Both the position numbers and the translations under genes were made by a program. 54,283 bases of DNA from assembly GCF_021021415.1 (NCBI RefSeq), contig NZ_JAINWJ010000027.1, forward strand, positions 1 through 54,283. Direction: 5' to 3'. The DNA is from Martelella mediterranea. GTDB lineage: Bacteria > Pseudomonadota > Alphaproteobacteria > Rhizobiales > Rhizobiaceae. Below are positions 23,564 through 38,136 of the stretch, piece by piece (position 1 is the stretch's first letter; the number at the start of each line of letters is the position of its first letter). The notes under the pieces were generated by a model. The model saw nothing but the letters and a program-made list of their open reading frames with translations, searched no databases and was not told where the DNA came from.

Positions 23564-23845
23564 TTGACCCAGATCGACCAGACACAGAAATTCATCATGC
23601 GCGGCCGTTTCGGCGCCGACAGCTTCATCCCGTGGATGGACCGGCATGCCCGCAAGCTTGGACTGGAGAAGCGAATCATCACCGCCTCGCCCGAGCGCAT
23701 CGAAATGGCGGTCAAAGGCCCGCCTGCCCTGATCGACGCGATGGAAATGGCCTGTTCGCTTGGGCCGATCGAGATCTGGGTCGAGGACATCGAATGCCTG
23801 CCGCTCAATGCCATGCCGAAATCCGATGAGCCGGTCAGCCATTGA
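23564..23845 (+). CDS. Acylphosphatase-like protein lacking the catalytic residues
   Basis: The 93-residue product has the size and layout of an acylphosphatase: an opening strand with GRFGADSFIPWMDRHARKLG in place of the usual GRVQGVGFRxW loop, a middle KGPPALIDAMEMACSLGP block and a final WVEDIE strand. The loop arginine that binds phosphate aligns with Ile, and the catalytic Asn position in the next strand reads Thr or Ala, so it is unlikely to hydrolyse acyl phosphates; a binding or structural role is more plausible. No ATG suits the fold: TTG 23564 gives the family length, while the first ATG (23597) would cut the first strand. It is divergent from folA. Confidence 0.7.
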   Translation: MTQIDQTQKFIMRGRFGADSFIPWMDRHARKLGLEKRIITASPERIEMAVKGPPALIDAMEMACSLGPIEIWVEDIECLPLNAMPKSDEPVSH

Positions 23846-24025: not shown

Positions 24026-24673
24026 ATGCACCCCCAGACAACAGGCAGATGGACGCCGGCGGCGCTCTCGGCCGACCTGGCCGCGGGCACGGCGATGCCG
24101 GCCAGCCTCACGGACAAGACCATCGCCCTGTGGCGCAGCGCCTCCGGCCGCCTGACCGCCTCCGACGATCGCTGTCCTCACAGGGGCATGCGCCTTTCCC
24201 ACGGCTTCGTGCGCGGCGAGGCGCTGTCCTGCATCTATCATGGCTGGCGCTATGGCCAGGACGGCCAGTGTCTGCGCATCCCGGCTCATCCCGATCTCAC
24301 CCCGCCAAAGACCATCCGCGTTGAAACCTACCCCGTGATCGAACAGGACGGCATCATCTGGATCGCGGACGGCGAGGATGCCGGCGCGCCGCCGCCCCTG
24401 AACGGGCTGATGCCGCTTCGTTCGCTGAACGTGAGCGCCGGCATTGCCGCCATCGAGCTGGCCGCCGATGCAAAAGCGGATGCCGACGGCGTGGTGAGGC
24501 CATCCGATGACGCCTTCTGCCTTCTGCTTGCCCCGCAGGGCAAAACCGCAACGTTGATTCATGTGCTCGTTTTCGCCGACGCAACGCCGCCGCAGCGGAT
24601 CGCCGCCTCGCGACAGGCGGAAACGCTGCGCCGCAAGGCGGAAGCCGCCAGCAACCAGGGAGCCGGATCATGA
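24026..24673 (+). CDS. Stand-alone Rieske [2Fe-2S] protein
   Basis: The 215-residue protein has a complete Rieske centre of the oxygenase type: C50-P-H52 and C69-I-Y-H72 with 16 residues between (CPHRGMRLSHG and CIYHGWRYG). The Rieske fold ends near 120. The rest is not a mononuclear iron domain, a flavin or an NAD domain; it ends in an Arg/Ala-rich helix. It is likely the electron carrier for the next gene product, which has the catalytic iron site but no cluster. In Pseudomonas NdmD an extra Rieske domain serves the cluster-less NdmC in the same way. GGAAAG lies 7 nt before ATG 24026; an ATG ten codons upstream is less well placed. ATGA overlap with the next gene. Confidence 0.85.
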   Translation: MHPQTTGRWTPAALSADLAAGTAMPASLTDKTIALWRSASGRLTASDDRCPHRGMRLSHGFVRGEALSCIYHGWRYGQDGQCLRIPAHPDLTPPKTIRVETYPVIEQDGIIWIADGEDAGAPPPLNGLMPLRSLNVSAGIAAIELAADAKADADGVVRPSDDAFCLLLAPQGKTATLIHVLVFADATPPQRIAASRQAETLRRKAEAASNQGAGS

Positions 24674-25503
24674 ATGCCATGCGAGACGAATGGTATCCGG
24701 TCGCGCTGTTCAGCCAGCTCGATCGCCGCGACACCATGCTGATGGGCGAAAACATCACCGTCGCGCGCGTCGGCGCTGACGAGGCGAAGGTGACCGCCTC
24801 GGATGGCCGCGCGCTCCCCGTGCGCTTACGCTACGGCCACGTCTGGACCTCGCTCGGCACGCCCGACCACGAGCTGTTCGATATCCCGGAGGCCGCCGAT
24901 CCCGAGCGCCGCCTTGTCGAAGTCGGGATCGTCCGGGTTCAGTGCTCGCCGCTGCGGGCCGTGGAGAATTTTCTCGACATCGCCCATTTCCCCTTCGTCC
25001 ATACCGATATTCTCGGCGCCGAGCCGCATACCGAGGTGGCAAATTACAAAGTCGAAATCCGCGAGGAAGGGGACGAGGTCTGGGCGACCCAGGTGAAGTT
25101 CTACCAGCCGCAGGCGGCCAAATCGGCAAGCGGCGGCATCGATACCGACTATATGTACCGCGTCCCCGCCCCCACCTGCTCGGTGCTCTACAAATCCTGT
25201 CCGCCGCGCCCCGGCGAGTGGGATGTGATCGCGCTGTTCGTTCAGCCGCTGACGGAGGAAGTGTGTGAGGTGTGGCCATGGATGGCGCTGTTCGACGACA
25301 CCTCCTCGATGACCGACCTGATCCAGTTCCAGCAGATGATCTTCCTGCAGGATCGTTCGATCCTCGAAAACCAGATCCCCGCGCGCCTGCCGCTTGACCC
25401 CGGCAAGGAAATCCCGACGCGGGCCGACATGACATCCATCGCCTACAGACGCTGGCTGAAGCGCCACAACTATACCTATGGCGCGCAATTGGTGGCCCAA
25501 TGA
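24670..25503 (+). CDS. Rieske-type oxygenase catalytic subunit without Fe-S cluster (NdmC-like)
   Basis: The 277-residue protein is a ring-hydroxylating oxygenase alpha subunit whose mononuclear iron domain is intact: N100-x2-D103-x2-H106-x4-H111 (ENFLDIAHFPFVH) supplies the electron-bridging Asp and two His ligands, and the Asp of LQDRSILENQ is the third. The N-terminal 60 residues keep the outer strands of a Rieske fold (EWYPVA, GENITVARV, GHVWTSLG), but the two cluster-binding loops are replaced by about ten residues. The same state is known for NdmC, the 7-methylxanthine N7-demethylase. The likely reaction is O2-dependent N- or O-demethylation or hydroxylation using electrons from the Rieske protein encoded just before it. 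It overlaps both neighbours by ATGA. Confidence 0.85.
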   Translation: MNAMRDEWYPVALFSQLDRRDTMLMGENITVARVGADEAKVTASDGRALPVRLRYGHVWTSLGTPDHELFDIPEAADPERRLVEVGIVRVQCSPLRAVENFLDIAHFPFVHTDILGAEPHTEVANYKVEIREEGDEVWATQVKFYQPQAAKSASGGIDTDYMYRVPAPTCSVLYKSCPPRPGEWDVIALFVQPLTEEVCEVWPWMALFDDTSSMTDLIQFQQMIFLQDRSILENQIPARLPLDPGKEIPTRADMTSIAYRRWLKRHNYTYGAQLVAQ

Positions 25504-26162
25504 AACTCTACGACTACATCCTTTCTCCAAGCTGTTACAAGGTCCGGCTGATGGCGGCGCTGGCCGGCGTCACGCTCGAGACCCGCGCGGTTGACTTTCA
25601 CCCCGGCAAGGAACATCGCGGCCCGGAAATGCGGCAGCTCAATCCGGCGGGAACGCTCCCGATCCTGACGGATGGCGATCTCGTCCTGACCGAATCCTCG
25701 GCCATGCTCGCCTATATCGCGGCCGGTTCGGCGCCCGCCTGGCTTGGCCGGGCCGATAATTCCGTCGAGATTGCCCTCGTGCAGCAATGGCTTGCCTTCT
25801 CGCCCAGGCTGACGGCGAGCCTCGGCGGCGCCAGGCTTCATCAGATGCTCAACATGCCGGGCGATATCGATGCCATGTCCGCCGCGGGCGTCGCGGCCCT
25901 CAGGGAACTGGAGATGGGTCTTTTCGAGCAACGCGAACGCGGCATGCGCTATCTTGCCGCCGACCGGCCGACGATAGCCGATATCGCCTGCTTCCCCTAT
26001 GTGGCGCTCGCTCCCGACGGCAATATCCTGCTCGATCCCTACCCGACGATCCGCATGTGGCTGCGCGCCATCCGCTCGCTCGACGGCTTCATCGAGATGC
26101 CGGGCATCCACCGGCTGCATGAACTGAAGCCTGAACCGGAACACACTGCGGAGGAAAGCTGA
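25500..26162 (+). CDS. Glutathione S-transferase-like protein (NdmE-like by context)
   Basis: The 220-residue protein has the GST layout: a thioredoxin-like domain to about 80 (LYDYILSPSCYKVRLMAALAG, NPAGTLPILTDGD, LTESSAMLAYI) and an all-helical domain with the DRPTIADIACFPY motif near 160-172. A Ser/Cys near residues 9-12 could contact glutathione. Its position directly after a cluster-less oxygenase subunit matches ndmE, whose GST-like product holds the NdmC-NdmD complex together without a known catalytic role. So a scaffold role is as likely as conjugation. It starts inside the stop of the previous gene (ATGA). Confidence 0.85.
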   Translation: MKLYDYILSPSCYKVRLMAALAGVTLETRAVDFHPGKEHRGPEMRQLNPAGTLPILTDGDLVLTESSAMLAYIAAGSAPAWLGRADNSVEIALVQQWLAFSPRLTASLGGARLHQMLNMPGDIDAMSAAGVAALRELEMGLFEQRERGMRYLAADRPTIADIACFPYVALAPDGNILLDPYPTIRMWLRAIRSLDGFIEMPGIHRLHELKPEPEHTAEES

Positions 26163-27542
26163 GTGGCCGGTCATCTGCTCAAGAACTGCGCGGCCGTTGT
26201 TGTCGATGAAGGCAACGGTCCGACCGTGCTGCGCAATGTCGATCTTCTCACCGAGGGCCCGGCGATCAAAGCCATCGGCATTGGTCTTGCGGACCGGGAG
26301 ATGCCGGAGGGCACGACAGAAATCGATGCGGATGGATGGTTTGTCTATCCCGGCCTCGTCAACACGCATCATCACTTCTTCCAGTGCTTCGTGCGCAACC
26401 GGGCCGATCTGGACTGGACCAAACTGTCGGTCATCGAATGGCTCGACCGGATCTATCCGGTGTTTGCGTGCCTCAATGAAGACTGTTTCTACCATTCCTC
26501 GGTCACGGCAATGGCCGAACTGATCAAGCATGGCTGCACCACCGCCTTCGACCACCAGTACAATTTCCCGCGCCATGCCGGCAAACGGCTGATCGACCGC
26601 CAGTTCGAGGCCGCGGACCTGTTCGGCATGCGGTTTCACGCCGGGCGCGGCGGCAACAGCCTGCCGAAATCCGAAGGCTCGACCATACCCGACGAGATGC
26701 TGGAGACCACCGACGAATTCATCGGCGACTGCGCGCGGCTGATCGACGCCTATCACGATGCCAACCCCTTCAGCATGCGCCAAGTCGTGGTCTCGCCCTG
26801 CCAGCCGGTCAACAGCTATCGCGAGACCTTCGTGGAATCGGTTCGCCTGGCGCGCGATCGGGGCGTGTTGCTGCACACCCATGTCGGCGAGGGTGAAAGC
26901 CCGGTGATGGAGGCCCGCCACGGCAAGCGCACCGTCGACTATCTGGAAGAGATGGGCTTTGCCGGCCCCGACACCTTCTATGCCCATTGCTGGGAACTGA
27001 CCCATGACGAGCTTCGCCGGATGGCGGCAAGCGGCACCGGCGTTTCCCACTGCCCAGAGCCGGTCTATCTCGTCGGCGCCGAGGTGACCGACATTCCGGC
27101 GATGGCCGCCTTCGGCCTGCGTGTCGGGCTGGGCTGCGATGGTGCTGCCTCCAACGACAATTCCAACCTGATGCACTGCCTGCATTCGGGCTACATGCTG
27201 CAATGCCTCGTCTCATCGACCCGCGAGCACCTAGTGCCGCCGCCAGCCGATTTCCTGGCCTATGGCACGACCGGCGGCGCAAGCCTGCTCGGGCGCAGCG
27301 ATATTGGCCGGCTCGCGCCCGGCATGGCGGCCGACCTGTTCGCGATCGACACGCGCCGCATGGACTATGTCGGCACCCGACACGATCCGCTGAGCCTGAT
27401 CCCACGCGTCGGCATCGGCAGCACGACCGACATGACCATGATCAACGGACGGATCATCTGGCAGGATGGCGAGTTCGCCGGTCTCGATGAACAGAAACTC
27501 TTCGCGGACGCCGAACAGGCGCTCGCCGGCATTGCAATGTGA
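26163..27542 (+). CDS. Amidohydrolase, 8-oxoguanine/guanine deaminase-like
   Basis: The 459-residue enzyme belongs to the metal-dependent cytosine/guanine/8-oxoguanine deaminase branch (AtzB/TrzN-like). The metal ligands are visible: H69-x-H71 in VNTHHHFFQC, the His of LLHTHVGEGESP (with the catalytic Glu), the His of FYAHCWEL, and the Asp of LGCDGAASND. The GASLLGRSDIGRLAPGMAADL segment closing the barrel is typical. It would deaminate an aminopurine, perhaps 8-oxoguanine or a methylated guanine; the substrate is not proven. The start is GTG immediately after the stop of the GST-like gene (TGAGTG), with GGAGG about 8 nt upstream. Confidence 0.88.
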   Translation: MAGHLLKNCAAVVVDEGNGPTVLRNVDLLTEGPAIKAIGIGLADREMPEGTTEIDADGWFVYPGLVNTHHHFFQCFVRNRADLDWTKLSVIEWLDRIYPVFACLNEDCFYHSSVTAMAELIKHGCTTAFDHQYNFPRHAGKRLIDRQFEAADLFGMRFHAGRGGNSLPKSEGSTIPDEMLETTDEFIGDCARLIDAYHDANPFSMRQVVVSPCQPVNSYRETFVESVRLARDRGVLLHTHVGEGESPVMEARHGKRTVDYLEEMGFAGPDTFYAHCWELTHDELRRMAASGTGVSHCPEPVYLVGAEVTDIPAMAAFGLRVGLGCDGAASNDNSNLMHCLHSGYMLQCLVSSTREHLVPPPADFLAYGTTGGASLLGRSDIGRLAPGMAADLFAIDTRRMDYVGTRHDPLSLIPRVGIGSTTDMTMINGRIIWQDGEFAGLDEQKLFADAEQALAGIAM

Positions 27543-27568
27543 AGACCAACCTCCAGGGAACCGATAAC

Positions 27569-28666
27569 ATGACCAAGATTACCCGCAGAACCTTGATCCA
27601 GGCCGCAGCCGCCACCGGCCTCGCCGGCGCGATGGGCGCACAGCGCGCCTTTGCCGCCGACGAACCGCTCGGCATCACCCTCGTCGTGCCGTCGCCGATC
27701 GGCGATGTCGGCTGGGGCCATGCGCTGGCCGCCGGCCTTGAACCGGTCAAGGAAGCCTATGGCGACAAGGTCAAGGTCACCGTGCTTGAAAATATCATGG
27801 AAGGCCCCGACGCCGACCGGATCATGAACAAGACCGTCGCCGATGGGAATAATTTCCTGATCGCCGGCTCGTTCGGCTATCAGAACGGCGCGTTCCAGAT
27901 CGCGCGGCGCAATCCGAAGATCAGCGTGTTGCATGCCTCGGGCTACATGGTCGGGCCGAATTTCTCGCCGTTTGCCGCCAAATATTTCCAGGGCACCTAT
28001 CTGCTCGGCATGGCCGCTGCCGCGGTTTCAAAATCCGGCAAGCTCGGCTCTGTCTCGGCCTTCGCCATTCCCGAACTGATCACCTCGATCAATGCCTTCA
28101 CGCTCGGCGCGCAGGCGGTCAATCCGGATATCGAGGTCTCGGTGGTCTGGGTCAATTCCTGGTTCGATCCGGCACAGGAACAGGATGCCGCCAAGGCGCT
28201 GATCGCGCAGGGCTGCGACGTGATCTTCTCCAACGCCCAGGACACGCCCTCGGTGATCTCGGCCTGCGAGGAAGCCGGCGTCTATGCCTTCAACCTCAAT
28301 TCCTCGATGCAGAAATACGCGCCGGAGAAATATCTCGGCTGCGTGGCCACCGACTGGTCGCCCTATTTCAAGGCGCAGGTCGAGGCGCATATGAACGGAA
28401 CATTCAAGGGTGCCAATGCCTTCCTCGGCATGGCTGACAATGTGGTCGAAGTCGTTGACCTCAACAGCGACATCCCTGCCGACATCATGGAGAAGATCAA
28501 GTCGACCGAAGCCCAGATCGCCGACGGCAGCTTCTCGCCGTTCACCGGGCCGATCGCCAAGGCTGACGGTAGCGAGGGCGTGGCCGCGGGCGAGATCATG
28601 ACCGACGAGCAGATCGTCGCCATGGACTGGCACGTCAAGGGCGTCACCACGCCGCTGCCGCAATAA
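27569..28666 (+). CDS. BMP-family ABC transporter substrate-binding protein
   Basis: The 365-residue precursor belongs to the BmpA/Med family, whose members bind nucleosides, purines or related compounds. The N-terminus is a Tat-type signal (TRRTLIQAAAATG then cleavage after AQRAFA), so it folds before export to the periplasm. Family stretches include SPIGDVGWGHAL, the AGSFGYQNGA and NSWFDPAQEQDAAKALI blocks and CVATDWSPY. ATG 27569 has AGGGAA upstream; an earlier in-frame ATG would bury the signal. It is followed by its ATPase and two permeases, and preceded by the deaminase gene, which supports a purine-type ligand. Confidence 0.92.
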   Translation: MTKITRRTLIQAAAATGLAGAMGAQRAFAADEPLGITLVVPSPIGDVGWGHALAAGLEPVKEAYGDKVKVTVLENIMEGPDADRIMNKTVADGNNFLIAGSFGYQNGAFQIARRNPKISVLHASGYMVGPNFSPFAAKYFQGTYLLGMAAAAVSKSGKLGSVSAFAIPELITSINAFTLGAQAVNPDIEVSVVWVNSWFDPAQEQDAAKALIAQGCDVIFSNAQDTPSVISACEEAGVYAFNLNSSMQKYAPEKYLGCVATDWSPYFKAQVEAHMNGTFKGANAFLGMADNVVEVVDLNSDIPADIMEKIKSTEAQIADGSFSPFTGPIAKADGSEGVAAGEIMTDEQIVAMDWHVKGVTTPLPQ

Positions 28667-28678
28667 GGCCCGCAGGGA

Positions 28679-30190
28679 ATGGAGACACCACTCCTTTCGC
28701 TCAAGGGCATTTCGAAGAGCTACGGACAGGTCCAGGCCAACCAGGACATCGACCTCGCCGTCGCTCCGCGATCGATCCACGCGATCCTCGGTGAAAACGG
28801 CGCGGGCAAATCCACGCTGATGAAGCTGATCTACGGCGTGGAGCAGCCCGACGCCGGCAGCATGGCGTGGAATGGCGCGCCGATCGCGCTCGCCTCTCCC
28901 GCCGCCGCCCGCCGCCAGGGCATCGGAATGGTGTTCCAGCATTTCTCCCTGTTCGAGACGCTGACCGTCGTCGAGAACATCCAGCTCGTCATGCCCGGAA
29001 CCAAGGCCGCGCTTGCCGAGCGCATGCGCGCGCTCGGCCGCGATTTCGGGCTGGAGGTCGATCCCTTCGCCCATGTCCACGCGCTTTCGGTAGGCGAGCG
29101 TCAGCGGGTCGAGATCATCCGCTGCCTGATGACCGACCCCAAGCTTCTGATCCTCGACGAGCCGACATCGGTGCTCCCGCCGCAAGCGGTCACCCTTCTG
29201 TTCGAAACGCTGCAGCGCCTGCGCGATGGCGGCGTGTCGATCCTGCTGATCTCGCACAAGCTGGAGGAAATCCAGGCGATCTGCGACCGGGCGACAATCC
29301 TGCGCGCCGGTCGCGTCACCGGCCATCTCGACCCGCGCGCGCATGACGAGCACACGCTCGCGAAGATGATGATCGGCCGCGACATACCCGAACCAATGCC
29401 AGCCGAACCTGTGGAACAGGGCGACAAGCAGCTCGAGATCGTCGGTCTCGACTACAAGCCCGAAGACCCGTTCGGCGTGTCCCTCGAAGGCATCACACTC
29501 ACCGTTCGCGGCGGCGAAATCCTCGGCATCGCCGGCATTTCCGGCAATGGCCAGAGCGAGCTGACCGCGCTGATTTCCGGCGAGACCCGGCTTGCCACCG
29601 CTGACCGCATCTTCATGATGGGCAAGGATGTCGGCCCCATGGGTGCCGCCGCCCGCCGCAAGCTCGGCTTCGCCTTCGTTCCGGAAGAACGGCTTGGCCG
29701 GGGCGCGGTTCCGGAAATGTCGCTGGCGATGAACGCCATTCTGACCGCCCATGGCCGCAACGTGGTCCGCAACGGCGTGATCGACAGGAAAGCGGCGGAG
29801 GCCTTCGCCCTTGAGTGCATCAGCGAATACGATGTCCGCACGCCGGGGCCGCAGGCCGAAGCCGGCGCGCTTTCCGGCGGCAATCTGCAGAAATTCATCG
29901 TCGGGCGCGAGATCATGCTCGCGCCGAAACTGCTGTTCGTCGCCCAGCCGACATGGGGCGTGGATATCGGAGCCGCGACCGCGATCCGCCAGCGACTGAT
30001 CGCGCTGCGTAATGCCGGCATGGCGATCCTAGTGATTTCCGAGGAGCTTGAGGAACTGTTCGAGCTTTCCGACCATATCCAGGTGCTCCACCACGGAAAG
30101 CTCAGCCCGCCGCTCGTCACCCGCGACACCCGACCCGAGGAAATCGGTCGCTACATGATCGGCTCCGAAACAGGAAAACGCGCCTCATGA
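28679..30190 (+). CDS. ABC transporter ATP-binding protein (double-domain, BMP system)
   Basis: The 503-residue protein fuses two ABC domains, as in nucleoside and sugar importers. The first has Walker A GENGAGKST at 38-46, a signature LSVGERQRVEI and Walker B LLILDEPTSVL. The second, after about residue 250, is the usual degenerate half with GISGNGQSELT for Walker A, signature LSGGNLQKF near 398 and FVAQPTWGVD instead of a normal Walker B. It powers uptake with the two permeases that follow, and starts 12 nt after the BMP gene stop. Confidence 0.93.
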   Translation: METPLLSLKGISKSYGQVQANQDIDLAVAPRSIHAILGENGAGKSTLMKLIYGVEQPDAGSMAWNGAPIALASPAAARRQGIGMVFQHFSLFETLTVVENIQLVMPGTKAALAERMRALGRDFGLEVDPFAHVHALSVGERQRVEIIRCLMTDPKLLILDEPTSVLPPQAVTLLFETLQRLRDGGVSILLISHKLEEIQAICDRATILRAGRVTGHLDPRAHDEHTLAKMMIGRDIPEPMPAEPVEQGDKQLEIVGLDYKPEDPFGVSLEGITLTVRGGEILGIAGISGNGQSELTALISGETRLATADRIFMMGKDVGPMGAAARRKLGFAFVPEERLGRGAVPEMSLAMNAILTAHGRNVVRNGVIDRKAAEAFALECISEYDVRTPGPQAEAGALSGGNLQKFIVGREIMLAPKLLFVAQPTWGVDIGAATAIRQRLIALRNAGMAILVISEELEELFELSDHIQVLHHGKLSPPLVTRDTRPEEIGRYMIGSETGKRAS

Positions 30191-31281
30191 CCGCCCTGTC
30201 GTTCCTGCCCAATCTGGTGAAGCGAGAACAGGCCTCGCTGAAGGCGACCCTGCTCGCGCCGCTGTTGGCGCTGCTGGCGGCGGTCATCCTCAATGTCGGC
30301 CTCTATGTGCTGATGGGCCGCAGCCCGACGGCGGTCGTCTATGCCATGCTGCTCGAACCGTTCATCTCGTGGACCTCGTTTTCGGAGGTGCTGCTGAAGA
30401 CCGGACCTTTATTGCTGATCGCGCAGGGTCTCGCCATCGGGTTCCGGGCGAAGGTGTTCAATATCGGCGCGGAGGGACAGTTCATACTCGGCGCGATCTT
30501 CGCCTCTGCGATACCGGTCTGGTTCCCGATGGCGACGGGGTTCTGGATCTGGCCGCTGATGCTTCTGCTCGGCGCCGTCGGCGGCGCGCTCTGGGCCGCG
30601 ATCACGGCGTTCTGGCGCGCGCGCCTCAACGCCAGTGAAATTCTCGTTTCGCTGATGCTGAGCCTCGTCGCCCTGCAACTGCTCTACTACCTGCTGCTCG
30701 GGCCGTGGAAGGACCCGAACGGCTTCAATTTCCCGCAATCGGTGATGTTCCAGTATGACGCGATGGTGCCGACGCTGATCCCCGGCACCCGCGTCAATGT
30801 CTCGCTGCTGATCGCCCTCGTCTTCTCGGCGGCCGCCTTCGTGTTCATGCAGAAGAGCTTCATGGGCTACAAGCTACAGGTCGGCGGGCTTGCGCCGAAG
30901 GCGGCGGGCTATGCCGGTTTCAGCGACAAGAGCGCGATCTGGCTTTCGCTGCTGATCGGCGGCTTTGCGGCCGGCCTCGCGGGCGCTGCCGAAGTGGCCG
31001 GCCCCGTCGGCCAGCTCCAGCGCTCGATTGCGACCGGCTATGGCTATGCCGCGATCATCGTCGCCTATCTCGGCGGCCTGCATCCGATCGGCATCATCTT
31101 CTCCTCGCTGTTCATGGCAGCGCTCTATATCGGCGGCGACAACGCCATGGTCTCCGCCAACCTGCCGGTCGCGGCGGTTCGGGTCTTCCAGGGCAGCCTG
31201 CTTCTGGCCTATCTCGTCGCCATCGCCTTCACGCGCTATCGGCTGGAGTGGCCGGCCACCCATCGGCGGAGCACGGCATGA
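30187..31281 (+). CDS. ABC transporter permease (BMP system, first subunit)
   Basis: The 364-residue integral membrane protein has about nine or ten hydrophobic helices and the BPD_transp_2 features of nucleoside-type importers, including the FRAKVFNIGAEGQFILGA segment that contacts the ATPase and the GGFAAGLAGAAEVAGPVGQL region near 258-277. It overlaps the ATPase gene (ATGA) and the second permease gene (ATGA), so the subunits are made in step. Confidence 0.92.
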   Translation: MTALSFLPNLVKREQASLKATLLAPLLALLAAVILNVGLYVLMGRSPTAVVYAMLLEPFISWTSFSEVLLKTGPLLLIAQGLAIGFRAKVFNIGAEGQFILGAIFASAIPVWFPMATGFWIWPLMLLLGAVGGALWAAITAFWRARLNASEILVSLMLSLVALQLLYYLLLGPWKDPNGFNFPQSVMFQYDAMVPTLIPGTRVNVSLLIALVFSAAAFVFMQKSFMGYKLQVGGLAPKAAGYAGFSDKSAIWLSLLIGGFAAGLAGAAEVAGPVGQLQRSIATGYGYAAIIVAYLGGLHPIGIIFSSLFMAALYIGGDNAMVSANLPVAAVRVFQGSLLLAYLVAIAFTRYRLEWPATHRRSTA

Positions 31282-32189
31282 ACGCAGTCGAATTCATTAT
31301 CGCCGGCATGCTGGCCGCCGCAACGCCGTTCCTGCTGGCGGCCCTCGGCGAGCTCGTGGTCGAGCGCTCCGGCGTGATCAATCTCGGCCTGGAGGGGCTG
31401 ATGGCACTGGGCGCGGCGATCGCCTTCATCGTCGTCTATCAAAGCGGAAGCCATATTCTCGGTTTTATCGCCGCAGGCATCGTCAGCGCGCTGCTTGCGT
31501 TGATCTTTGCCTTCGTGGTGCTGGGATTTCGCGCCAATCAGGTCGCGGCCGGGCTTGCGATCGGCATTCTCGGACAGGGGCTTTCGGCGCTGTTCGGCAA
31601 GACCTATGAGAGCCTGACGATCAAGGGCCTGCCGAAGCTCGCGATCCCCGGCCTTTCCGATATCCCCGTTGTGGGCGGGCTGTTCAGCCAGGATATCGTC
31701 GTCTGGCTATCGCTGGCGGCAACCTTCGGCGTCTGGTTCATGCTCAATCGCACCAAGACCGGTCTCGTCATACGGGCCGTCGGCGAAAACCCCAAGGCCG
31801 CGCATGCGATCGGCTTTCCCGTTATCGCCGTGCGTCTGGCGGCAATCGTCTTCGGCGGTGCGATGGCAGGCTTTGCCGGCGCCTATGCGGCGACGGTCTA
31901 CACCCCGCTCTGGGCCGACGGCATGATCGCCGGGCGCGGCTGGATCGCCATCGCCCTCGTCGTCTTCGGCACGTGGCTGACGGGCCGGGTCTTTCTCGGC
32001 GCCTGCATGTTCGGACTGGTTTCGCTCCTGAGCCTTGCCGCCCAGGCCTCCGGCGTCGGCCTGCCCTCGCAACTGCTCTCCGCCCTGCCCTACATCGTCA
32101 CCATCATCGTGCTGGGCATCATCTCCGCCGACCGACGCCTGCTGAAGCTGAACGGCATCGCCTCGCTCGGCGAGCCGTATGAACGGTAG
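31278..32189 (+). CDS. ABC transporter permease (BMP system, second subunit)
   Basis: The 303-residue protein pairs with the previous one to form the channel. It opens with a helix, then the ERSGVINLGLEGLMALGA coupling segment, and shows about eight hydrophobic helices with FGGAMAGFAGAYAATVYTPL near 195-214. ATG 31278 overlaps the upstream stop (ATGA); a possible start ten codons earlier lies inside the preceding gene and is less likely. It is the last gene of the operon. Confidence 0.92.
   Translation: MNAVEFIIAGMLAAATPFLLAALGELVVERSGVINLGLEGLMALGAAIAFIVVYQSGSHILGFIAAGIVSALLALIFAFVVLGFRANQVAAGLAIGILGQGLSALFGKTYESLTIKGLPKLAIPGLSDIPVVGGLFSQDIVVWLSLAATFGVWFMLNRTKTGLVIRAVGENPKAAHAIGFPVIAVRLAAIVFGGAMAGFAGAYAATVYTPLWADGMIAGRGWIAIALVVFGTWLTGRVFLGACMFGLVSLLSLAAQASGVGLPSQLLSALPYIVTIIVLGIISADRRLLKLNGIASLGEPYER

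Positions 32190-37009: not shown

Positions 37010-38136
<1,127 letters not shown>

Follow-up and report, generated by a model that had tools for sequence, protein, structure and literature searches.

In this study, we analysed a 54,283-nucleotide stretch of DNA from Martelella mediterranea (the window; NCBI RefSeq assembly GCF_021021415.1, contig NZ_JAINWJ010000027.1, contig C27 of a 5.4 Mb genome), and we describe an operon that lies between its positions 24,026 and 32,189. Sequence comparison makes it very likely that this operon encodes a split Rieske oxygenase of the NdmC type, which is made up of a lone [2Fe-2S] protein (P0001), a cluster-less catalytic subunit (P0002) and a glutathione S-transferase (GST)-like protein (P0003). 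The amidohydrolase P0004 is very probably an NdmH, that is, an N2,N2-dimethylguanine hydrolase, and the BMP-family binding protein P0005 of an ATP-binding cassette (ABC) importer likely has a purine-like ligand. Taken together, these homologies suggest that the whole unit probably serves the uptake and catabolism of methylated guanines.

The split NdmC-type oxygenase

The caffeine region on plasmid p1 of Paraburkholderia caffeinilytica CF1 was used as the reference. Two full-length oxygenases, an NdmC-like protein, a Rieske–reductase fusion, a GST, a formaldehyde dehydrogenase and an S-formylglutathione hydrolase are encoded there together, and we named its proteins NdmA–E from this gene content and not from deposited labels; the gene set is that described for strain CBB5 (PMC4408171). 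P0002 is 48% identical to NdmC of this region, P0003 is 38% identical to NdmE over 206 residues, and P0001 is 33% identical to NdmD over 193 residues. In the Pfam domain search, P0001 contained a Rieske domain (E 2.7e-21), whereas P0002 matched the oxygenase C-terminal domain alone (PF19112, E 1e-22), with no match to a Rieske domain. The P0001 chain ends at 215 amino acids without any reductase fusion.

The catalytic-subunit tree comprised 57 rows, and its 43 cluster-less members, CF1 NdmC included, were split from 14 full-length oxygenases with a support of 100/100. Within the tree, the 27 catalytic subunits that occur with a separate Rieske protein formed one group (100/99), and the 16 that occur with a fused NdmD did not. 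Rows of the phthalate and carnitine types lay outside this tree, as did the P0002 homologue of locus L065, the frame of which is short at the N-terminus; with the 14 full-length rows, the grouping with unrelated oxygenases did not occur. In the Rieske-domain tree of 50 rows, 22 lone Rieske proteins, with P0001 among them, and 12 NdmD N-termini were separated from 16 full-length oxygenases (98/89). Because both trees join them, the separate and the fused forms most likely share one origin. A sequence-only reading of the window had equated P0002 with NdmC, P0001 with the N-terminal half of NdmD and P0003 with NdmE, and had proposed that the extra Rieske is a separate protein here; both trees and the GST identity bear this out.

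All 55 aligned Rieske rows keep the four Rieske ligands, and residues D103, H106, H111 and D228 of P0002 are invariant in 43 of 43 catalytic rows; the latter correspond to the 2-His-1-Asp iron site and the bridging Asp of the oxygenase family. Other assignments were also considered. An HpxD- or NdmA/NdmB-type identity of P0002 was ruled out by its place in the NdmC clade (100/100), and in sequence and fold searches with P0002, SxtT/GxtA and NdmA/NdmB ranked above phthalate dioxygenase. P0001 is not an ordinary Rieske ferredoxin, as its top structural and sequence matches were oxygenase subunits.

Some relatives of these proteins were found in other arrangements. Two full-length oxygenases (L066, 9874–10887; L073, 11671–12747) branch closest to the cluster-less clade; the one of L066, which has a BMP importer beside it, may be similar to the ancestral state. 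Tandem NdmC-like pairs that have one NdmD and one GST in common occur in L039/L072, L058, L060, L061, L062 and L063, and give the impression that a single electron chain serves two regiospecificities. On Pseudomonas putida 1290 plasmid pPp1290 (L038, 12844–14599), an NdmD-like gene is annotated in three pieces, and it is whole in close relatives.

The amidohydrolase and the importer

Drexler and colleagues (2026) described N2,N2-dimethylguanine hydrolases from Pleomorphomonas oryzae, Haliea and a Rhodobacteraceae bacterium, with kcat/KM values of approximately 1e5–1e6 per M per s on N2,N2-dimethylguanine (PMC13054789). The model enzyme poNdmH of P. oryzae has the catalytic residues Q74, E243, H275 and D326, the substrate-flanking residues W85, W93, Y98, Y133 and P300, and a second-shell CQNN set (C213, Q214, N217 and N165) (PMC13054789). 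P0004 matched 13 of these 13 residues with identical numbering (offset 0), while 2000 shuffles of one family member, each compared over 180 offsets, reached 6 of 13 at best. Altogether, 89 amidohydrolase rows were scored: 78 proteins, P0004 among them, had an identity to P0004 of 66.9% or more, and 77 of these had 13 of 13 residues and one had 12, while 11 proteins of other types had 3–5. The 12 GuaD rows (2–3 of 13) were not used as a control, since possible indels make the gapless test unfair to them. The orthology of P0004 to poNdmH rests on these published residues and on a Pleomorphomonas relative (L126), which is 78% identical to P0004 and encoded in the same operon type.

P0004 had been read from the sequence as a deaminase of the guanine/8-oxoguanine type, and this needs to be revised. 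It scored 362.8 bits with the 8-oxoguanine deaminase model NF006055 (cut-off 532) and 109.9 bits with the guanine deaminase model TIGR02967 (cut-off 375.4), and it carries the full NdmH signature instead. A separate canonical guanine deaminase (TIGR02967, 554.9 bits) is encoded elsewhere in the genome, near xanthine dehydrogenase on contig C41.

A second module with another NdmC-like subunit was seen in L040 (1462–8996), L056 (1–7233) and L064 (5961–13548), and its edge in L071 (1–3811). Its amidohydrolase is of another kind (3 of 13 NdmH residues), a GMC oxidoreductase and a molybdopterin hydroxylase accompany it in L040, L056 and L064, and a thiamine pyrophosphate-type protein is present in L040, L056 and L071. 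This module possibly acts on a different methylated heterocycle.

The importer had been read as being of a purine type, and it does look like one. The binding protein AtzT has been crystallised with guanine, and Brucella 3s99 was modelled with adenine (PMC6834077). Residues 38–375 of P0005 align end to end with both proteins. The AtzT pocket set tested was Y45, S97, F98, T139, E165, N169, W194, N218 and N220, and six of the nine are kept in P0005 (S97, F98, T139, E165, W194 and N218). A purine-like ligand is therefore likely, and its methylation state is not readable from the pocket residues. In the P. caffeinilytica caffeine region (L174, 24286–28071), the ABC ATPase and permeases are 47–57% identical to those of the window, with 57% for the ATPase. 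As a caffeine region carries similar ABC genes, transporters of this family may carry methylated purines in general.

These proteins also bear on a different function, in which the Rieske pair would act, for example in an HpxD-like manner, by hydroxylating or opening the ring of a purine, pterin or triazine, and an oxidised or foreign heterocycle would be cleared. Records annotated as xanthine hydroxylase subunit HpxD are among the distant matches, the P0004 family includes AtzB and 8-oxoguanine deaminase, and AtzT binds 2-hydroxyatrazine too (PMC6834077). However, P0002 belongs to the NdmC clade and is separated in the tree from the HpxD-like rows, and P0004 keeps the CQNN residues, which are SSII in AtzB. 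We consider this function highly improbable.

Distribution of the gene set

In a GTDB scan, 528 loci were confirmed, and the best 80, a sample biased to close kin, were tallied; two of them repeat earlier contigs (L082 is G003/L045, and L105 is G023/L046). The thresholds were 60% identity over 40% of the length for NdmH, 40% for BMP and 50% for the ATPase. The lone Rieske protein, a P0002 homologue and the GST occurred together in 80 of 80 loci, which indicates that the gene set is not due to chance. The BMP protein was found in 75 loci, the ATPase in 72, NdmH in 70, and GuaD instead of NdmH in 4. Neither NdmH nor GuaD was found in the stretch covered for 6 loci (L106, L113, L127, L133, L158 and L160), at least in L133 because of the contig end. 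The replacement of NdmH by GuaD points to an exchangeable C2 hydrolase in a set whose Rieske protein, NdmC, GST and importer are retained.

Among 151 related genomes, a P0002 match at 1e-10 was found in 29, the weakest being full-length oxygenases, and a P0004 match at 1e-80 in 10. In all 8 genomes with a P0004 match of E <= 1e-200 (at least 67% identity, the window included), P0004 was one gene away from a P0002 homologue, and the remaining 143 genomes had no match at this level. The two weaker matches (37–39% identity) occurred in G123, which has a fused-type NdmC, and in G131, which has no P0002 match. Among plasmid records, 313 had a P0002 match at 1e-5 (full-length oxygenases included), with 128 from Rhizobium and 66 from Sinorhizobium. 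For example, plasmid pRL10 of R. johnstonii 3841 carries the identical eight-gene order (RL_RS29070–RL_RS29105), with an annotated acylphosphatase ahead of it. In Sinorhizobium, Mesorhizobium and Pseudomonas, there are fused-NdmD systems with a BMP importer or other purine genes as neighbours.

A plant methylxanthine pathway (caffeine, theobromine or 7-methylxanthine), with the amidohydrolase as an incidental member, would agree with the homology of P0002, P0001, P0003 and the ABC importer to the P. caffeinilytica caffeine region. However, the operon has no full-length NdmA- or NdmB-like gene, NdmH acts on a C2 amine that is absent from xanthines and yet occurs in 70 of the 80 loci, and the hosts include Rhodobacteraceae, probably marine judging by their names. 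A plant methylxanthine pathway is very unlikely, and where split relatives carry NdmH, the substrates are more plausibly methylated guanines than caffeine.

Proposed complementary decay of a duplicated subunit

P0001 and P0002 matched complementary stretches of the full-length oxygenases SxtT/SxtDIOX, with P0001 covering SxtT/SxtDIOX residues 11–124 and P0002 residues 104–333. The C-terminal extension of P0001 aligned with the region of NdmD between the Rieske and reductase parts (hhalign probability 96.9%, E 1.9e-10), and this middle region of NdmD aligned in turn with the NdmC profile (89.7%, E 1.9e-6); the controls, which were GST, amidohydrolase, BMP, GuaD and reductase profiles, all stayed below 1%. 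The AlphaFold model of P0001 was built with 48 sequences and had a mean predicted local distance difference test (pLDDT) score of 94.4. Its top fold matches were full-length oxygenases, with query-normalised TM-scores of 0.58–0.77 over 247–307 alignment columns in the 50 matches listed. The Rieske domain makes up approximately 0.55 of the chain; therefore, the best fold matches must use the extension too. This suggests that the C-terminal part of P0001 models as a shrunken catalytic domain. The P0002 model (pLDDT 90.0) reached query-normalised TM-scores of up to 0.88 with SxtT/GxtA, and we read the six strands at its N-terminus as a Rieske base without the cluster loops. The simplest reading that the models suggest is a duplicated alpha subunit, each copy of which lost the metal centre that the other kept.

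Within oxygenase trimers, approximately 12 Å separate the cluster of a subunit from the iron of the adjacent one, and a hetero-hexamer is listed for NdmA/NdmB (PMC12445004). Therefore, such a division of labour is mechanically plausible, and by analogy we infer that P0001 and P0002 would assemble as a hetero-oligomer of this kind. A more far-reaching proposal joins these points. In it, an obligate hetero-oligomer arose by duplication and complementary decay, with P0001 keeping the cluster and a dead catalytic domain and P0002 keeping the iron and a dead Rieske domain, and together with NdmH it would strip two kinds of methyl mark, which differ chemically, from guanines derived from RNA. For example, 2,2,7-trimethylguanine of small nuclear RNA caps would be turned into 7-methylxanthine and then into xanthine. 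As a whole, we regard this proposal as doubtful.

Proposed pathway for methylated guanines

We propose that the locus would serve the catabolism or salvage of methylated guanine bases, for example those released from RNA. In the first step, P0005 and the ABC importer would take up a guanine-like base, judging from homology and the pocket residues. In the second step, P0004 would hydrolyse the C2 substituent to give xanthine or an N-methylxanthine, as its active-site signature suggests, and the leaving group would be dimethylamine and probably also methylamine or ammonia. In the third step, P0001 with its [2Fe-2S] cluster and P0002 with its mononuclear iron would act as one Rieske oxygenase, as the phylogeny suggests, with the GST-like P0003 helping to hold them together. 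This pair would remove a ring N-methyl as formaldehyde, and the best candidate position is N7, the one known for NdmCDE; removal of the N7-methyl by the window enzyme is only tentatively proposed by this analogy. 7-Methylguanine, which the sequence-only reading gave as an example of a fitting substrate, is thereby a candidate. Xanthine would then enter normal purine breakdown, for which a xanthine dehydrogenase is present on contig C41.

A different target of the Rieske pair would be the exocyclic N2 of N2-methyl- or N2,N2-dimethylguanine, so that NdmH or GuaD would finish the resulting guanine or act in parallel. NdmH in the operon does point to N2-methylated guanines, and GuaD in place of NdmH in 4 of the 80 loci fits a demethylase that yields guanine. 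However, such an enzyme would duplicate the direct hydrolysis by NdmH, and the nearest characterised system, NdmCDE, removes the N7-methyl of 7-methylxanthine (PMC4408171). N2-demethylation by the Rieske pair is therefore unlikely in our opinion.

Several points weigh against our proposal of a methylated-guanine pathway served by a split NdmC-type enzyme. NdmH already strips N2-methyls, so the need for a demethylase rests on hypothetical ring-methylated substrates. The operon has no linked reductase, and an NdmD- or reductase-like frame was found in only 2 of the 80 kin loci. Three of the nine AtzT pocket residues differ in P0005 (Y45W, N169S and N220D); all 80 window-type binding proteins have W45 and D220, S169 is present in 76 of 80, and W (27) and D (21) are the commonest letters in the other 32 binding proteins too. 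Support is weak (93/64 and 81/44) for the branches by which the split group falls within the fused ones. As for the decay of a duplicated subunit, the P0001 extension gave no significant direct hhalign match (7% with NdmC and 1.2% with full-length oxygenases), the NdmD middle region reached only 6% with full-length oxygenases, and the P0001 fold matches had a root-mean-square deviation of 4–8 Å; the link from the extension to a catalytic domain thus rests on the NdmD–NdmC comparison and the fold match.

Electron supply

The sequence-only reading stated that no reductase is encoded here and called for a linked one to be sought in relatives, and both points were borne out. All PF00175 and PF00970 matches of the genome lie outside contig C27, so the window holds no such reductase, and no NdmD-like reductase was found elsewhere in the genome at 1e-40. 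In relatives, G079 (L065) has the split set together with a separate Rieske-less reductase, which is 43% identical to the reductase half of NdmD and is placed between the GST and ABC genes. The locus is flawed, with the BMP frame in two pieces and the NdmC frame short at its N-terminus. A possible second case is L130, where a reductase-like frame (29% identity) lies approximately 1.3 kb upstream on the same strand.

By inference, one of the unlinked reductases of the genome would supply the electrons to the window system. The reductase on contig C23 most resembles those of related systems; it is 27.6% identical to the G079 reductase and adjoins another Rieske oxygenase, and we read this pair as being of the betaine-monooxygenase kind. 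The other reductase-domain matches were on C41 (an NqrF-like protein), on C64 (a long flavoprotein frame) and on C45, where a frame of 294 amino acids would, by its length and domain matches, fit a ferredoxin-NADP reductase.

Gene layout and the ninth gene

The eight plus-strand open reading frames of the operon, with their places, domains and close junctions, agree with the sequence-only reading, which missed a ninth gene ahead of them (Table 1). The remaining Pfam domains were GST in P0003, amidohydrolase in P0004 and Bmp in P0005, followed by the ATPase and two permeases. ATGA junctions occur at 24670, 25500 and 30187, TGAGTG at 26160–26165 and a GTGA overlap at 27539, and a 12-base gap lies upstream of the ATPase gene at 28679. 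A further ATGA junction would be formed at 31278 if permease 2 begins there. No RNA elements were found at gathering scores, and promoter and terminator scans gave a signal no clearer than in shuffled sequence.

Table 1. Genes of the operon and the preceding small gene in the window.
Feature	Coordinates	Strand	Remarks
Acylphosphatase-like small protein	23564..23845	+	93 aa from TTG, alternative ATG 23597; ninth, accessory member
P0001, lone Rieske [2Fe-2S] protein	24026..24673	+	C-terminal extension of ~95 residues; corresponds to the N-terminal half of NdmD
P0002, cluster-less Rieske-oxygenase catalytic subunit, NdmC family	24670..25503	+	Domain search and tree
P0003, GST-like protein, NdmE counterpart	25500..26162	+	Domain search and identity to the caffeine-region GST
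P0004, amidohydrolase, probable NdmH (N2,N2-dimethylguanine hydrolase) type	26163..27542	+	13/13 published residues
P0005, BMP-family periplasmic binding protein, probable purine-type pocket	27539..28666	+	Alignment to AtzT/3s99
ABC transporter ATPase, two ATP-binding domains	28679..30190	+	Domain search
ABC permease 1	30187..31281	+	Domain search
ABC permease 2	31248..32189	+	ATG 31278 (ATGA overlap) likelier start than GTG 31248

The acylphosphatase-like gene was found by tblastn in 78 of the 80 related loci (missing in L105 and L115). Among L043–L070, it was found in 15 of 17 split loci (missing in L046 and L057) and in none of the 11 other loci. The Pfam Acylphosphatase score was 14.2 bits, below the cut-off of 22.5, and an LGP motif was kept in more than 90% of 96 aligned rows. 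The catalytic Arg and Asn of acylphosphatases seem to be absent from the small protein, and we take it to be a conserved accessory, perhaps for assembly.

Approximately 5 kb downstream of the operon, a glutathione-dependent formaldehyde dehydrogenase is encoded at 37016–38134 on the plus strand (TIGR02818, 587 bits, cut-off 544). The same enzyme is encoded directly behind the GST gene in the P. caffeinilytica caffeine region.

Significance and comparison with known systems

The component parts of this operon are known, and what is new within the literature that could be searched is their separation, their combination and the likely substrate class. The combination had been called undescribed, and this holds in part. 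No published account of the separate-Rieske form, of the combination or of its substrate class was found, nor one that connects methylguanine or NdmCDE with a rhizobial Rieske operon, which is weak evidence as the search was thin on subscription journals. On the other hand, homologous ndmCDE clusters were already noted in a 2015 review, mostly in Sinorhizobium and Mesorhizobium and with unknown function (PMC4408171).

According to the authors of the NdmH study, work on its physiological context is continuing; the terms operon, transporter and Rieske are absent from the main text (PMC13054789). The operon, which combines an importer, a probable NdmH and an NdmC-type demethylase, offers a widely conserved candidate for this context. 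The operon also opens to testing the way in which a Rieske oxygenase functions when its two metal centres sit on different polypeptides, and a plausible route of origin is shown. If the proposed pathway is true, Alphaproteobacteria of soil and probably of the sea possess a dedicated pathway to the nitrogen of modified RNA bases. If the doubtful proposal of an obligate, decayed pair were true as well, the bacterial catabolism of epitranscriptomic marks would be a dedicated pathway, which would give NdmH its physiological context.

Four known systems resemble parts of the operon. NdmCDE of Pseudomonas putida CBB5 likewise has a cluster-less catalytic subunit, a Rieske cluster on another polypeptide and a GST-like partner. 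In contrast, the Rieske of the window is a free protein that is not fused to a reductase, and its operon is without a reductase and additionally encodes NdmH, the acylphosphatase-like protein and, within one run of genes, an importer. In the full-length oxygenases SxtT/GxtA, NdmA and dicamba monooxygenase, whose fold is matched by the models of both P0001 and P0002, the cluster and the iron are on one polypeptide. The published NdmH enzymes have all 13 active-site and second-shell residues in common with P0004, and they were published as single enzymes (PMC13054789), whereas P0004 sits in an operon. AtzT and Brucella 3s99 resemble P0005 in their end-to-end alignment, and six of the nine AtzT pocket residues are kept, while P0005 has W, S and D where AtzT has Y45, N169 and N220, respectively.

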